From positions 62,001 to 126,000 of the forward strand of contig NZ_JAJAVG010000007.1 in NCBI RefSeq assembly GCF_020531915.1: a DNA stretch of 64,000 nucleotides. Reading direction: 5' to 3'. Numbering within the stretch: position 1 is the stretch's first letter; every line of letters starts with the position of its first letter. Origin of the DNA: Methylovorus mays. GTDB lineage: Bacteria > Pseudomonadota > Gammaproteobacteria > Burkholderiales > Methylophilaceae. Shown here one piece after another: positions 7,279 through 62,145 of this stretch. Position numbers and translations under genes: made by a program. The notes below the pieces were generated by a model. The model had not been told where the DNA came from, made no database searches, and saw only the letters and a list, made by a program, of their open reading frames with translations.

Positions 7279-8259
7279 ATGCAGCAAACAAAACGTCATC
7301 ATTATGTGCCTAAGACTTATTTAAATTCTTTTTGCGACAAGGAGGGTAAACTTCTTGTCTATCGCAAGGATGGACCTTCCGAACCTCTAAAGGTAACACC
7401 AGACAATACTCAGTTCCGTCGGTATTATTACTCTCAGCCAATCCAAGATGGCGGGCAAGACAATAATACATTGGAGGCCCTATTTTCAGCAGTTGAGTCC
7501 TACTGGCCGGCAACCGTAAATGCGCTTAAGCACCGCAGTGATGTAAATTCAAGAATTGAATCTATTATCCAGTTTATTTGTTTGCAACGCGTTCGAGTAC
7601 CGGCCTGCCGAGATATGGTTGAGGCTATAGAAGCTCAATTTGTTAAAGATACATTAATAACAATGCTTGCTAATGGTCAGCTTCCGCCACTCCCCCCAGA
7701 ACTTGCAGATTTACCTAATAAGCTAAAAATATCGATTGATCCTCACCGAAGCATCCATAGAATGGTGGACATGTTGCGCGCTATGGGAAACTTAATTGAC
7801 AAGTTAGGTTTTGTTGTGATTCACAACAAGACGAAGCGACCATTCCTCACCAGTGACAATCCTGTTTTATGGTTTGATCCGACGCTTCCATTTTTAGAAC
7901 AGAAGCCTTACACAATCAACCCACAAGGGCCTATTCTTTTATTTTTTCCAGTGAGTCCTGATATGGGCCTCTTGGGTACTAGTGGCGATCTAGAAAGATT
8001 CCAATGTTTTGGCTTTGAACATCAAGAAAACTCAGATGAAGAGTGGGTTGAAATAATGAACGCGCAAATATGTAGATTTGCTTATGAGGCTGTGATCGCT
8101 TCTGCATCAGGACAAGAATATATAATCGAGTGTTTCAAAGATGTTTCTCCTGTACATGAAGCCTCTTCACTAAGAACCAAAACAGGAAACCTAACTATTC
8201 ATAAGCTCGCCTTCGATAAGCGAGTACAAAAACAAAAATGGAATCCGAATAATAAATAA
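7279..8259 (+). CDS. DUF4238 domain protein, probably acquired
   Basis: A 326-residue soluble protein beginning KRHHYVPKTYLNSFCDKEGKLLVYRKDG, the hallmark N terminus of the DUF4238 family (an H-H-Y-V-P motif near the start). A conserved block around FVVIHNKTKRPFLTSDNPV also fits. No signal peptide or membrane segment is seen. The function is unknown; the histidine-rich start suggests an enzyme or metal site, but that is inference. The gene is clearly richer in A+T and in ATA/AAT/TTA codons than its neighbours, lacks an obvious ribosome-binding site, and stands alone between serB and a terminator. Together these point to horizontal acquisition. Relatives are often found in variable genome regions, so a defence role is possible but unproven. 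Confidence 0.8.
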   Translation: MQQTKRHHYVPKTYLNSFCDKEGKLLVYRKDGPSEPLKVTPDNTQFRRYYYSQPIQDGGQDNNTLEALFSAVESYWPATVNALKHRSDVNSRIESIIQFICLQRVRVPACRDMVEAIEAQFVKDTLITMLANGQLPPLPPELADLPNKLKISIDPHRSIHRMVDMLRAMGNLIDKLGFVVIHNKTKRPFLTSDNPVLWFDPTLPFLEQKPYTINPQGPILLFFPVSPDMGLLGTSGDLERFQCFGFEHQENSDEEWVEIMNAQICRFAYEAVIASASGQEYIIECFKDVSPVHEASSLRTKTGNLTIHKLAFDKRVQKQKWNPNNK

Positions 8260-8424: not shown

Positions 8425-9297
8425 TCAATGCTTTTTCGGATGCAATGGCAGCCACACTACTTCGCCTGCCTTCATGTCTGGCACGATGAGGTATTTTTCA
8501 TCTTTGCTGAGGGCAATGTCGGCAGATGCATTGAATCCATCCTTCAGCAGCTTCACTTCGTCGTCGTGGCCCAGCTCAAATACCTTGCCGTTTTTCCAGT
8601 CGCTGACGTAGATGACGCCGGAGCTGGCGTGCACCAGGCCATCACCACCGCCGAAACCTTCCGCCAGTTTGGTGAGTTTTTTGGATTTCATGTTGTAGCT
8701 GTAGAGGATGCCGGAGGCAAAGTCGACTTCCAGCAGAACATCGCCGGTATCATCCACCACCAGGCCATTGGGGCTGAGTACCTTGGGATCCTGTTTGCCG
8801 TCAATCACCAGCGTGACCTTGCCTGCCTTGTCCAGGCGGTAAATGGCACCGCCGCTGCCGGTGTTGATGTCGCCACTGTCGCTAACGTAGAGATTGCCTT
8901 TGGGGTCGGGCTCAATGTCGTTCAGGAACTGTGGCGTCACCGGAAAGCCGTTGGTGGGCGTGAACACCTCCCATTTGCCATCGGGCTTCACTTTCAGGAC
9001 GCGGGTTTTATCGGTGACATAAATATCCTGCCCGATGATGGCCAGACCTTTGGGGTCATCCATGCCGGTCGCAAATACGCTGACCTTGCCATCAGGCGAG
9101 ATCACGCTGATCTGGCCATCACCATCTTTGCCAAATTCGCCGATTTCAGAGACAAACACGCGGCCATCCTTGGTTTGCAGCACGGATTCCGGCGTTTTGA
9201 AGCCGCCTATGGTTTTGCCTTCGTGAGCATGCGCGAGAGGCGCGAACAGCACGGACAACGCAAGCACAAGCGGGGTGAGACGGGGAATTCGGGTCAT
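8425..9297 (-). CDS. Exported SMP-30/NHL-type beta-propeller protein
   Basis: A 290-residue protein with a signal peptide (TRIPRLTPLVLALSVLFAPLAHAH, cleavage after AHA). It is followed by repeated blades such as DGRVFVSEIGEFGKDGDG, GNLYVSDSGDINTGSGG and GVIYVSDWKNGKVFEL. These are typical of SMP-30/gluconolactonase-like propellers that bind a divalent metal. It is probably periplasmic. It could hydrolyse a lactone produced by the sorbosone-dehydrogenase-like enzyme two genes upstream, but the substrate cannot be read from sequence. It is the last gene of a five-gene operon and starts 21 bases after the previous stop. Confidence 0.82.
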   Translation of the reverse strand: MTRIPRLTPLVLALSVLFAPLAHAHEGKTIGGFKTPESVLQTKDGRVFVSEIGEFGKDGDGQISVISPDGKVSVFATGMDDPKGLAIIGQDIYVTDKTRVLKVKPDGKWEVFTPTNGFPVTPQFLNDIEPDPKGNLYVSDSGDINTGSGGAIYRLDKAGKVTLVIDGKQDPKVLSPNGLVVDDTGDVLLEVDFASGILYSYNMKSKKLTKLAEGFGGGDGLVHASSGVIYVSDWKNGKVFELGHDDEVKLLKDGFNASADIALSKDEKYLIVPDMKAGEVVWLPLHPKKH

Positions 9298-9318
9298 GGC
9301 GTATATCTCCTGGGTTGG

Positions 9319-9903
9319 TTATTTAGGGCTTTTTATGGAAGGCAGCACGCTTACCATGGAACATGGCGTAGCGGTTTCGTTGGAGGGAATGCCATTCTTC
9401 ACGGCATCGCTGAATGCGGGGTCGGCTTTCATCTTGGCCACCACTTGTTGCATGGCGAGCTTGTAGGATTGTTCCACCTGGTAGGCAGGCACTACATCGA
9501 GAAAACCACTTTTTTCTGATTCGCCAACGTAGGTGCCAATCGGTTTGCCGCTACCACTATAAGCGCTGGCAATAATGGTGCCGTAGAAAATCTTCATGTG
9601 CGGGTTGTAGAACATCTTGGGTTGCAGCTTGACCAGCGTATTACCGACCAGATTGCTCTCGCACATGCCCACCTTGCCAAACTCGGCACCCATTACCTCT
9701 TTGGCAACTGGCTCCACTGCCGGGCCTTGGGCAAACCAGTAATCATTGTAAAATTGCCAGAGCTTGATCGGATGCTGATACTCCTGTGGATTGATGTAGA
9801 TCAGCATATCGGCTGGCTTGGCTGCCTCATCCGCCAGCGCCATGGCTTGCACAGGCAAGAGCCCGGCAACCAGCCAAGAGAGTAAATGCAGTCTGTGTTT
9901 CAT
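9319..9903 (-). CDS. Exported protein of unknown function
   Basis: A 194-residue protein with a signal peptide (hydrophobic residues 6-22, cleavage near ALA-DEA). I do not recognise the mature domain. It has several aromatic-rich segments (EYQHPIKLWQFYNDYWF) and two cysteines (GMCESN and ATPCSMV) that could form a disulphide in the periplasm. It lies between a sorbosone-dehydrogenase-like gene (24 bases upstream) and an SMP-30-like gene (21 bases downstream), all on the same strand, with a clear AAGGAAA ribosome-binding site. The context suggests a partner in a periplasmic oxidation pathway. No function is assigned. Confidence 0.75.
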   Translation of the reverse strand: MKHRLHLLSWLVAGLLPVQAMALADEAAKPADMLIYINPQEYQHPIKLWQFYNDYWFAQGPAVEPVAKEVMGAEFGKVGMCESNLVGNTLVKLQPKMFYNPHMKIFYGTIIASAYSGSGKPIGTYVGESEKSGFLDVVPAYQVEQSYKLAMQQVVAKMKADPAFSDAVKNGIPSNETATPCSMVSVLPSIKSPK

Positions 9904-9927
9904 GGTACTTTCCTTGATTAAAAACGA

Positions 9928-11157
9928 TTATTTGGCCTGATATCGTATGCGATACACTAGGCCAGAACGGTCATCCGACACATACAGCGCACCATCCGGC
10001 CCGATTAGCGTATCTACCGGGCGGCCCCAGGCCGCGTTGCCTTGCAGCCAGCCAGTGGCAAAATCCGTGACTTCAACGGGTTGATTCTGCTTGAATTTTA
10101 CACGCACCAGTTTGTATCCCGAGGGGTTAACCCGATTCCACGAGCCATGCAGCGCCACAATGGCATCCTGCTGATAATCCTTGGGGAATGCGCTTTTATG
10201 CAGGAAGGTAATGCCCAGTGGCGTCGAGTGCGCGTCAAAGGTGATGGCCGGCGCTTGCATGGCATCGCAGAATCCGCTGGGTCCCTCAAAGTTTGGATCC
10301 GGCACGCGTTGGCCCCAGCAATGGGGCCACCCATAGTTCTTGCCCGACTCAATCTGGTTCAGGTGCTCAGGCGGAATATCATCATTGACGCGCCCACCAC
10401 GGGTTTCCGAGCGCATATCCGCACCATTGTTGGTAGCAAACATGGCCTGCGTTTGCGGATGCCAGGCAAAGCCTTGCGAATTGCGCAGCCCGCTCGCCCA
10501 TACCGCTGACTGGGCATGCCGCCCCAGCGTCACCAATGCCCCGGCAGGTTTGCCATCCACGGTATAGCGCAAAATAGCCGCACGGCTGGGATCTTGCTCC
10601 ACGCAAACATTGCAGCTGGAGCCAACATTGAGATAGAGATAACCATCCGGCCCCTGCCGGATGGTCTTGAGGGTATGCCCACCCGTCGCCAGTCCACTGA
10701 TGATGGGCTGGGCTTTGGCAGCGGGCCACTTGCCGCCCTGCTGCTCCAGCCGGACTACGCCATCCTGATTTGCCACCAGCAGCTGTTTATCCACAAAAAC
10801 AATGCCGTTCGGCGCATTCAGCTTGTCTGCCACGACCACGGTTTCATCGGCTTTGCCGTCCTTATCGCGGTCAGGCAGCATCAGCACCTGGCCGCCCATC
10901 CCGGTGGTGAGATAGAGATTACCATCCGGGCCGAAAGCCATCATGCGCGGGCCGCTGAAATAGCCTTCCCCTGGATTCACACGGGCAAACACATTCAGGC
11001 TGAAACCAGCGGGCAAGCGCACGGCACTTGCCACATCTGCCGGGATGGGCGCTTCGACGGCCTGATCAGCATGGCTGCTGGCGGATGCGACGGTCATGAT
11101 ACCCGCCAGCATCATGCAGAATCCGACGACGGGACGTCGAATACGCGGCTTGGACAT
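9928..11157 (-). CDS. Exported glucose/sorbosone dehydrogenase-like propeller
   Basis: A 409-residue protein with an N-terminal signal peptide (cleavage near SASSHADQ). A six-bladed propeller follows, of the soluble PQQ glucose dehydrogenase / L-sorbosone dehydrogenase family. Landmarks are RMMAFGPDGNLYLTTG near the N terminus, GGHTLKTIRQGPDGYLYLNVG, KNYGWPHCWGQR, and LHGSWNRVNPSGYKLVRV. A CNVCVEQ pair may form a disulphide. The family commonly uses PQQ, and PQQ must be available in a methanol-dehydrogenase methylotroph, but cofactor use here is inferred. It starts 32 bases after the flavoprotein stop with a good CAGGAG site. Confidence 0.87.
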   Translation of the reverse strand: MSKPRIRRPVVGFCMMLAGIMTVASASSHADQAVEAPIPADVASAVRLPAGFSLNVFARVNPGEGYFSGPRMMAFGPDGNLYLTTGMGGQVLMLPDRDKDGKADETVVVADKLNAPNGIVFVDKQLLVANQDGVVRLEQQGGKWPAAKAQPIISGLATGGHTLKTIRQGPDGYLYLNVGSSCNVCVEQDPSRAAILRYTVDGKPAGALVTLGRHAQSAVWASGLRNSQGFAWHPQTQAMFATNNGADMRSETRGGRVNDDIPPEHLNQIESGKNYGWPHCWGQRVPDPNFEGPSGFCDAMQAPAITFDAHSTPLGITFLHKSAFPKDYQQDAIVALHGSWNRVNPSGYKLVRVKFKQNQPVEVTDFATGWLQGNAAWGRPVDTLIGPDGALYVSDDRSGLVYRIRYQAK

Positions 11158-11189
11158 TCACTTGCTCCTGTAAAGGGTCATGGATGTTG

Positions 11190-12455
11190 TTATGTCAGCA
11201 CATCGGACCAGATATTCTGCGCCCAGTAGCGGGCATAGTCGGCCTCAAGTTCGGAGGGAGCGTCAGAGACGCCACCGCCTTCGGCTGACAGCATGATTTT
11301 TTTCGCCTGGTTGTAGCGGTACACATTGGCGACGTGCATGGCCATGTGGTCACTGACATAGCTGTAGCAGGTGTTGGCAAACACCGGCGATGCGTCGATC
11401 GGCTGCTCGGTCAGCGCTGCCAGCACAGCATTGGCGCACACCCGGGCTTGCGATGTGGCCATGTGCGCCGACTTGGGCAAGGCCGCCGATACTGCATCAC
11501 CTATGATATGGACATGCGGAACCACCATAGATTCATATGTCAGAAAATCCACCTCGCACCAGCGCTTGTCGATATTGTTGGCCTGCACCAGTTGCGCCGG
11601 GATTCCAGCGCGTTGCGGCGGGATCACATTCAGCACATCTCCCTTGATGCTTTCAAACTCGGTCATCACAGTCTGGCCAGCCACATCCACTTCGATCACC
11701 GCGCTGTTGGGCCGATAATCAATCATGCCGGGGTAGAGATCGGCCCAGGCTTTGGTAAACAGGCCCTTCTTGGAGACGATTTCCGGGTTGGCATCCAGCA
11801 CGATAATACGGGCCTTGGGCTTGTGCTGCTTGAAGTAAAACGCCACCTGACATGCCCGCTCGTAAGGCCCGGGCGGACAGCGGTAAGGGGCTTTGGGGAT
11901 ACTCATCACAAACACGCCATCGTCCGGCATGCTCTCCAGCTGGCGGCGCAGATTAACGGTCTGCTCCCCAGCTTTCCAGGCATGGGGCACCTGCTTGCGG
12001 GCAGCGTCGCTTTCTAGCCCCGGCAACGCATCGTAAATAAAGTCTACCCCGGGAGCGAGGATAAGCTTGTCATAGCCAAAATCACTGCGGCCCAGCACCA
12101 GCTTTTTACGCTCTGGATCAATCGCGACCACCGAATCCCGTACCCATTGCAGATCGTGATTCTTCTTTAGTGCGGCATAGCTGAACGTGAGGTCATCGAT
12201 GGTTTTGCTGCCACCCAGCACCAGATTGCTGAGGGGGCAGGAGACAAATTGCGAGCTGGGTTCCACCACCACCACATCGACCGTATTACCTCCCCACAGC
12301 TTGAGATATTTGGCGGCCGCCGCACCAGCGTAGCCCCCGCCAACCACCACCACTCTGGGCTTTGGTCTTCCGGCAGCGCGTAACAAGGGCGAGCATCCAG
12401 TCAGCAGCGCTGCCGCCGAGCCCAGTTTGAGAAAATTGCGTCTATCAATGGTCAT
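11190..12455 (-). CDS. fccB: Flavocytochrome c sulfide dehydrogenase-type flavoprotein, Tat-exported
   Basis: A 421-residue FAD protein. The N terminus has a twin-arginine signal (DRRNFLKLG) running into a lipobox-like LLTGC at C21, so it may be a Tat-exported lipoprotein. The dinucleotide loop VVVVGGGYAG is at 35-44. C73 in VSCPLSN matches the cysteine that covalently holds FAD in flavocytochrome c. C193 (APYRCPPGPYE) and C363 (NTCYSYV) match the redox-active cysteine pair used on sulfide. So the key residues of FccB/SoxF are all present. It overlaps the upstream cytochrome gene by 11 bases, as expected for a two-subunit enzyme. The real substrate could be sulfide or another small sulfur species. 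Confidence 0.88.
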   Translation of the reverse strand: MTIDRRNFLKLGSAAALLTGCSPLLRAAGRPKPRVVVVGGGYAGAAAAKYLKLWGGNTVDVVVVEPSSQFVSCPLSNLVLGGSKTIDDLTFSYAALKKNHDLQWVRDSVVAIDPERKKLVLGRSDFGYDKLILAPGVDFIYDALPGLESDAARKQVPHAWKAGEQTVNLRRQLESMPDDGVFVMSIPKAPYRCPPGPYERACQVAFYFKQHKPKARIIVLDANPEIVSKKGLFTKAWADLYPGMIDYRPNSAVIEVDVAGQTVMTEFESIKGDVLNVIPPQRAGIPAQLVQANNIDKRWCEVDFLTYESMVVPHVHIIGDAVSAALPKSAHMATSQARVCANAVLAALTEQPIDASPVFANTCYSYVSDHMAMHVANVYRYNQAKKIMLSAEGGGVSDAPSELEADYARYWAQNIWSDVLT

Positions 12456-12816
12456 GAGAAGGCTCCAGCTTCACGGAGGGCGGGAGCTTGCCAGCGACCC
12501 GTGGTTGCGTGGCAAAAAACGCGGCCAGGCCGACAATTTCGTCTTCCGTCAGCCCTTTGGCATGGCGTTGCATCACAGTCGCCGGGCGCTCGCCAGAACG
12601 AAATGCTTTCATCTGGCGGATGAAATGCAGGCTATCGAGACCGGCCAGCACTGGTGTCCCCCCCACGCTATTGCCATCGGTGCCGTGGCAGGCCGCGCAG
12701 GAAGCAGCCAGCACCTGAATATGCGGAGAATATTGCGGGGTTTGCGCGAAGGCGCTACCAGAGATACACATGAGAACTCCCAAGACGGGAATTCGGTAAG
12801 AGGCTATCAGTTTCAT
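12445..12816 (-). CDS. Exported monoheme class I cytochrome c, FccA/SoxE-like
   Basis: A 123-residue protein with a signal peptide (cleavage after AFA) and a single CAACH heme motif. The methionine in TVMQRHAKGLT is a likely sixth heme ligand, followed by a typical DEIVGLAAFFATQ helix. The size and layout match the small cytochrome subunit of flavocytochrome c in which only one heme is present. It is the first gene of the five-gene operon and overlaps the flavoprotein gene by 11 bases, supporting an FccAB-type complex that passes electrons to the periplasmic cytochrome pool. Confidence 0.88.
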   Translation of the reverse strand: MKLIASYRIPVLGVLMCISGSAFAQTPQYSPHIQVLAASCAACHGTDGNSVGGTPVLAGLDSLHFIRQMKAFRSGERPATVMQRHAKGLTEDEIVGLAAFFATQPRVAGKLPPSVKLEPSHDH

Positions 12817-12863: not shown

Positions 12864-12901
12864 AAGAGCGAAGCCTGTCGTTGAGTACAGGCTTCGCTCT
12901 T
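12864..12901. terminator. Strong terminator downstream of the second ankyrin gene
   Basis: A perfect 15-bp inverted repeat: AAGAGCGAAGCCTGT (12864-12878) and ACAGGCTTCGCTCTT (12887-12901), with an 8-base loop. On the minus strand it lies just after the ankyrin stop at 12955 and ends in TTTTG. It insulates the ankyrin gene from the cytochrome operon. Confidence 0.9.
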
Positions 12902-12954
12902 GTGATTATAGCGGGTAAAACACCAGCGTTAACGGCATGGGCTTGATAACAAGC

Positions 12955-13437
12955 CTAGTTACATTGGCCTTCGCAACCATCATCCTTGGCGCCCGCAGCT
13001 TCCAGCACTTCCACCATCTTGGTGTTGCCTGTATCCCTGACGGCACGCACGATGGAAACGCCACCGCGCATCTTGATATTGACGTCAGCACCCTTGGAAA
13101 TCAGGTATTTGACGACATCGGTATAGCCATCATAAGCCGCCAGATGCAAAGGCGTCATTTTGGTCATGGGGTGCTGGTAGTTCACGTCAGCGCCCTGCTC
13201 AACCAGATACTTCACCACCGCCAGCTGGCCTTTGTTGGCCGCAATCTGCAATGCCGACCATGCGAAGTATTTGTCGTTAACATCCACTTTGTGTTCATTG
13301 AAATATTTCTTGACCACCTTGAGCTTGCCGGTACCCAATGCATCGGTGTACTCAACCTGCTCATCGCCTGTCAGCGCAAAGGCCGAAAACGGAATACAGA
13401 GTGCTGCTGCCAACAGGATTGCCTTGATTGTTTTCAT
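12955..13437 (-). CDS. Small exported ankyrin-repeat protein
   Basis: A 160-residue protein with a signal peptide (MKTIKAILLAAALCIPFSAFA). About four ankyrin repeats follow, clearest in GQLAVVKYLVEQGADVNYQ and GYTDVVKYLISKGADVNIK. A C-terminal CEGQC cysteine pair may form a disulphide. It is preceded by GAGAGAG and followed by a strong terminator, so it appears to be a monocistronic periplasmic scaffold or inhibitor-type protein. It is much shorter than the ankyrin protein at 3151 and not an obvious recent duplicate. Its binding partner is unknown. Confidence 0.85.
   Translation of the reverse strand: MKTIKAILLAAALCIPFSAFALTGDEQVEYTDALGTGKLKVVKKYFNEHKVDVNDKYFAWSALQIAANKGQLAVVKYLVEQGADVNYQHPMTKMTPLHLAAYDGYTDVVKYLISKGADVNIKMRGGVSIVRAVRDTGNTKMVEVLEAAGAKDDGCEGQCN

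Positions 13438-60477: not shown

Positions 60478-62145
<1,668 letters not shown>

Follow-up and report, generated by a model that had tools for sequence, protein, structure and literature searches.

A row of five genes for exported proteins in Methylovorus mays probably represents a conserved periplasmic electron-input locus of the Methylophilaceae that is built from two separable modules, a flavocytochrome c sulfide dehydrogenase (FCSD; subunits FccA and FccB) and a dehydrogenase paired with a lactonase. This assignment is based on sequence comparison and gene context. The row lies in a stretch of 64,000 nucleotides (positions 62,001 to 126,000 of contig NZ_JAJAVG010000007.1, assembly GCF_020531915.1; hereafter the window) of a 3.0-Mb host genome, whose nearest named relative is M. 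menthalis (98% for the 194-residue protein listed below). The list of open reading frames (ORFs) of the window contains five minus-strand ORFs at the outer coordinates 8425–12816 given in the original prediction, here in their order along the minus strand:

12445–12816, minus strand: exported monoheme cytochrome c, most likely the FccA subunit (CxxCH motif, profile matches to FCSD heme subunits)
11190–12455, minus strand: FccB, the flavin adenine dinucleotide (FAD) subunit of flavocytochrome c sulfide dehydrogenase (Pfam FCSD domains, phmmer matches, cysteines)
9928–11157, minus strand: exported glucose/sorbosone-dehydrogenase-like beta-propeller of the pyrroloquinoline quinone (PQQ) type (Pfam GSDH, H161, R225, N226, LHGSWNR motif)
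9319–9903, minus strand: exported protein of 194 amino acids, function unassigned (invariant C81 and C181, conserved in the family)
8425–9297, minus strand: exported SMP-30/gluconolactonase-like propeller (Pfam SGL, Ca2+ ligands E37, N126, N177 and D219)

The spacing of the original prediction was reproduced throughout. The cytochrome gene (12816–12445) and fccB (12455–11190) overlap by 11 bases, and gaps of 32, 24 and 21 bases separate fccB from the GSDH-like gene (11157–9928), this gene from the one for the 194-residue protein (9903–9319) and the latter from the SMP-30-like gene (9297–8425). Inspection of the N-termini revealed export signals on all five proteins, as had been proposed; four are of the Sec type, and FccB carries a twin-arginine motif (RRNFLK) with only a sub-threshold match to Pfam TAT. 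In a simple motif count, 32/35 FccB homologues showed a twin-arginine motif, and lipobox-like motifs were present in some FccB, GSDH and SMP-30 homologues. The family names proposed for four of the members agree with Pfam matches (Cytochrom_C, FCSD, GSDH and SGL), and the fifth, described as unrecognised, indeed has no Pfam match.

In order to determine how far this arrangement extends, we searched 187 Methylophilaceae genomes, 119 of which were classified as good (≥ 90% complete and ≤ 5% contaminated). Among the good genomes, the gene of the 194-residue protein was present in 107, fccB in 91, the GSDH-like gene (gsdh) in 75 and the SMP-30-like gene (smp30) in 117. The four genes were found in the order fccB–gsdh–194-residue protein–smp30 on one strand within 8 kb in 76/187 genomes, and of the 115 genomes having both fccB and the gene for the 194-residue protein, 108 have the two within 6 kb of each other on one strand; as many assemblies are fragmented and the matches listed were placed on contigs, these two counts are lower bounds. 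The order is hence not confined to this strain, recurs across the Methylophilaceae genera examined, and is not a product of chance. Most often, the wider order in the 40 loci fetched was purL–ankyrin–cytochrome–fccB–gsdh–194-residue protein–smp30, often followed by a convergent serB. Across about 40 loci the median gaps were − 1, 27, 23 and 52 bases, and none of the internal gaps contained a terminator-like hairpin that was strong by our own threshold. Short gaps, the retained order and the lack of strong internal hairpins agree with the proposal of one operon-like unit. Outside the family, no propeller genes were found near FccB in the fetched loci (L081–L112 and L122–L124, most spanning about 1.5 kb on each side), and thus this comparison gave no relative of the five-gene order beyond the family. 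In one genus (g14), an MFS-transporter-like gene is inserted between the gene for the 194-residue protein and smp30 (L035, 7742–9076; L036, 6085–7383), and a gap of the same size is seen in L052–L054.

For the first module, the assignment of FccB rests on matches to Pfam FCSD_central (PF21706, 1.2e-44) and FCSD-flav_bind (PF09242, 1.3e-21), both exceeding the curated cut-offs, and on phmmer alignments over the whole length to 5n1t_A (5e-101), 3vrd_B (7e-99) and 1fcd_A (1e-96). Its cysteines C73, C193 and C363 align with those of 5n1t_A and are invariant in 18 homologues; from FCSD structures (1fcd) we take them to be the FAD-linking cysteine and the redox disulfide pair. The adjacent cytochrome matches Pfam Cytochrom_C (1e-6), and its CxxCH motif and Met82 are invariant in 15 homologues. 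It is most likely the FccA of the adjacent FccB, because heme subunits of FCSD match its family profile (3vrd_A, 2.5e-23; 5n1t_B, 1.1e-22; 1fcd_C, 1.1e-22) and because it is present at 33/33 main loci with fccB and gone where fccB is gone (L036, L052–L054, L057). It has a single heme motif, whereas the heme subunits in 1fcd and 3vrd are longer; 5n1t_B, a chain of 102 residues, is also short. The pair resembles the FccAB of known structure (1fcd, 3vrd, 5n1t) in its adjoining genes for an FccA-type cytochrome and FccB, its FCSD domains and its FAD-linking and redox cysteines, whereas the operon in the window differs by the addition of sugar-dehydrogenase-like and lactonase-like propellers. In this module, the disulfide of FccB would bind sulfide or another reduced sulfur compound as an adduct, the covalent FAD would relay the electrons to the monoheme FccA, and the sulfur would leave as sulfane sulfur.

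Paralogous FccAB sequences were detected elsewhere in five genomes (G053, G055, G057, G058 and G109); in three of these, the FccB of the paralogous pair is the only one found. In 5/5 genomes where positions were compared, the paralogues adjoin a fused SoxYZ-like carrier (TIGR04557), a neighbourhood that we count as support for a sulfur context of this type of flavocytochrome. These paralogous loci (L131, L132, L133, L134 and G055:C1:2778055), which usually have a TetR-like regulator nearby and in one case (L133) also hold a SoxH-like metallohydrolase (TIGR04559), possibly encode a flavocytochrome–carrier system. At other places, the host genome itself has genes for a SoxYZ-like carrier and, separately, for a SoxY/SoxZ pair. 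Co-occurrence of SoxYZ-like genes with fccB was considered as evidence and dropped, since nearly every good genome of the family (112/117) has such a carrier. In an unrelated methylotroph, Methylophaga thiooxydans, an FCSD is reported to be induced during growth on dimethyl sulfide (DMS) (PMC6548844).

The second module begins with the GSDH-like protein, which matches Pfam GSDH (3.6e-25; 89.4 bits against a cut-off of 25). Its family profile aligns with a fungal PQQ sugar dehydrogenase, 6jt5, over most of the length. H161, R225 and N226 are found in 19/19 aligned members, and the LHGSWNR motif is retained, these positions being aligned to 6jt5 and partly also to 2ism; from soluble glucose dehydrogenase, we presume H161 to be the catalytic histidine and R225/N226 to contact PQQ. 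The protein thus shares the propeller, the catalytic His/Arg and the LHGSWNR motif with PQQ glucose/sorbosone dehydrogenases and fungal AA12 enzymes (2ism, 6jt5), but differs by extra conserved cysteines (SSCNxC), remote similarity and scores below the NCBIfam cut-offs. Against NCBIfam it remained below every cut-off (TIGR03606, 28.9 against 434.55 bits; TIGR02604, 77.6 against 122.2 bits), and accordingly no named subfamily applies. The slot of this gene can be filled differently: in a reduced genome (L138), a canonical GSDH (PF07995, 1.3e-85) lies between the ankyrin gene and smp30, and in L050 a nitroreductase-like gene occupies the gsdh position. A related PQQ dehydrogenase, CcSDH, reduces cytochrome c (PMC4133262), and PQQ is produced by a Methylovorus strain (PMC3257108).

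The SMP-30-like protein matches Pfam SGL (2.4e-15; 57.3 bits against a cut-off of 26.3), and its residues E37, N126, N177 and D219 are invariant in 18/18 homologues. In the propeller lactonase of Deinococcus radiodurans, the residues N290/N339/D381, which bind Ca2+, are the ones that align with three of them (N126/N177/D219), and E37 is placed on E200 by the TPES motif; the numbering is that of PMC12362111, which by our derivation differs from that of the chain by a constant 21. The protein therefore resembles this lactonase (DrSOD, PDB 9m58) and SMP-30/DFPase in its matched and invariant Ca2+ ligands E, N, N and D. In contrast to DrSOD, it is a stand-alone, exported protein with no fused superoxide dismutase, and some of its homologues are apparently lipoproteins. 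By profile, the best solved relative of the family is Campylobacter jejuni Cj1041c (22gu, 6.7e-27), for which no functional paper was found in the open-licence literature. A structure prediction based on an alignment of two near-identical sequences reached a mean pLDDT (a per-residue confidence measure) of 49.3 and was not used as evidence.

The pairing of a dehydrogenase with such a propeller extends beyond the five-gene row. In D. radiodurans, a glucose dehydrogenase gene is located directly upstream of the Ca2+ propeller lactonase gene (PMC12362111), and the operon in the window likewise places its sugar-dehydrogenase-like gene upstream of the propeller gene. A single reading frame of about 640–780 residues joins GSDH and SMP-30 domains in Methylophilaceae and, beyond the family, in five genomes of the class, the fusion loci inside and outside the family being L125 (5103–7031), L126 (5514–7544), L146, L147, L148, L154 and L156; in L128 the two genes stand side by side at a separate locus. 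These fused or adjacent genes suggest a recurrent pair that is independent of FccAB. The original prediction had called the combination of the operon unusual, a view that is weakened by this half of it being known as fusions elsewhere and as neighbours in Deinococcus. In the second module, the PQQ-dependent dehydrogenase would oxidise an aldose or aldehyde and donate electrons to cytochrome c, and the Ca2+ propeller lactonase would open the lactone formed.

The separability of the modules is evident from their losses. FccAB is gone from the locus with gsdh kept in L052–L054, L057 and L136, the last of which is reduced to the ankyrin, GSDH-like and SMP-30-like genes. In L036, where FccAB is also gone, only the genes for the 194-residue and SMP-30-like proteins are kept, and in L137 FccAB is absent and ankyrin and smp30 remain. 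Conversely, gsdh was not found in 27 genomes keeping fccB, smp30 and the gene for the 194-residue protein (e.g. those of L043, L059 and L067). Methylopumilus-like genomes have ankyrin and smp30 together and the gene for the 194-residue protein elsewhere. Because FccAB and gsdh are lost independently of each other, a single pathway needing all five proteins, as originally predicted under the name of an undescribed oxidation pathway, is unlikely, and two modules in one compartment, probably sharing a cytochrome c pool, fit the data.

Three other explanations have to be weighed against these two modules. That the five proteins work one after another on a single class of substrates combining sulfur with an aldehyde or sugar, for example thiohemiacetals from sulfide or thiols and the periplasmic formaldehyde of methanol oxidation, appears quite unlikely to us. 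Such a pathway would be in line with the order and tight spacing retained family-wide, with the export of all proteins, and with Methylotenera mobilis consuming methanethiol and DMS (PMC5607357), where sulfur and one-carbon (C1) chemistry meet in the family. However, the cytochrome and FccB are absent where the GSDH, SMP-30 or 194-residue protein genes stay, GSDH is absent where FccAB stays, and GSDH and SMP-30 occur fused or paired without FccAB. We consider it very improbable that the whole block serves a single pathway in the periplasm, directed at a C1 or sugar compound that contains sulfur (such as formaldehyde–sulfide or formaldehyde–thiol adducts arising beside methanol dehydrogenase), with the flavocytochrome and the PQQ enzyme acting at two ends of the molecule and the 194-residue protein as its substrate-binding or sulfur-carrying member. 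Highly improbable is also a role in the maintenance and protection of periplasmic quinoproteins and thiols, in which the flavocytochrome would clear sulfide or persulfides attacking PQQ enzymes and the propellers would serve as scaffolds. The SoxYZ-like carriers adjoining the FccAB paralogues, named quinoprotein-associated by NCBI, and the two invariant cysteines of the 194-residue protein point in this direction, but the full metal site of the SMP-30-like protein and the retained catalytic residues of the GSDH-like protein are those expected of enzymes, and the near-ubiquity of SoxYZ-like genes makes their co-occurrence uninformative.

Finally, the row could be a loose cluster of unrelated periplasmic housekeeping genes, whose ancestral order is kept by a shared promoter and whose modules are functionally unlinked. 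The flanking genes (purL, serB and in some cases sucCD) likewise keep their position although they are unrelated, and the modules are lost independently; against this, the overlaps and short gaps inside the block suggest that selection keeps some members together, and ankyrin and smp30 lie side by side in 1.3-Mb genomes that lost other members (L137). Overall, we regard this explanation as possible but unlikely. The assignment to two modules also has points against it. The smp30 gene is retained without gsdh in many genomes and hence shows no strict tie to the dehydrogenase, and the scores of the GSDH-like protein below every NCBIfam cut-off leave its substrate class uncertain. Furthermore, the complete block has long been conserved, which could reflect a closer functional coupling than two modules allow, and the modules would not be fully independent if GSDH also uses the cytochrome of the operon.

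The enzyme parts of the locus belong to known families. Within the open-licence papers searched, the family-wide locus and the 194-residue protein appear to be undescribed. If the assignment is correct, obligate and facultative methylotrophs of this family would share a fixed locus combining a periplasmic sulfide dehydrogenase with a PQQ dehydrogenase–lactonase, and organisms regarded mainly as methanol users would have non-C1 electron inputs. The locus also offers candidate sulfide-handling genes for a family that has been connected with the consumption of methanethiol and DMS (PMC5607357, PMC4611497), and it draws attention to an uncharacterised exported protein that is widely conserved.

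This 194-residue protein is, at low confidence, most likely a disulfide-bonded periplasmic accessory and not an enzyme of either module. Its family alignment contains two invariant cysteines (C81 and C181), and profile and single-sequence searches gave nothing above threshold in Pfam, NCBIfam or PDB. The similarity of two of 30 family members to the YajG-like lipoproteins (Pfam Lipoprotein_16) is sub-threshold (best 0.0035) and serves as a lead only; unlike these lipoproteins, no lipobox was found in members of the family. The predicted structure (mean pLDDT 46.6, from an alignment of two near-identical sequences) was not used as evidence, and a Foldseek search with this low-confidence model returned no significant fold match. 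No family members were detected in 368 other genomes of the class, and distant relatives in 6/200 sampled genomes of the order are mostly single-domain and lipoprotein-like, in unrelated contexts. In one of these genomes, from another family of the order, the domain occurs three times in tandem in one reading frame of 646 amino acids (L114, 6746–8686), next to a TonB-receptor-like gene. The gene is not bound to the operon, as Methylopumilus-like genomes have it alone beside a glutathione-peroxidase-like gene.

Upstream of the operon, three further features were noted:

12955–13437, minus strand: exported ankyrin-repeat protein, upstream neighbour (Pfam Ank matches)
12905–12932, minus strand: promoter-like sequence TTAACG-16-TATAAT in front of the cytochrome gene, weakly supported
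12864–12901, minus strand: terminator-like 15-bp hairpin with T tail, between the ankyrin and cytochrome genes

The ankyrin gene (13437–12955), absent from the original prediction, holds its position as firmly as the five genes do, and almost every locus examined has it between purL and the operon. The hairpin (12901–12864), a perfect 15 bp stem with a T-rich tail, is nearly identical in M. menthalis (L031). Since it lies between the ankyrin and cytochrome genes, the transcript more likely begins at the cytochrome gene, and the ankyrin gene is probably a constant neighbour with a separate transcript. The TATAAT of the promoter-like site is conserved in the same M. menthalis locus; such sites are as numerous in the region as expected by chance. 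In genomes of 1.0–1.4 Mb that lost most of the block, ankyrin and smp30 survive together beside purL (L137, 5313–6659; L138, 1968–4651), which suggests that these two genes may matter most within it. On the other side of the operon, a plus-strand DUF4238 gene (7279–8259) between serB and the operon has a GC content of 41%, compared to 56% for the window, and is not found at the same place in two other Methylovorus genomes (L002, L003); it is probably a recent insertion.

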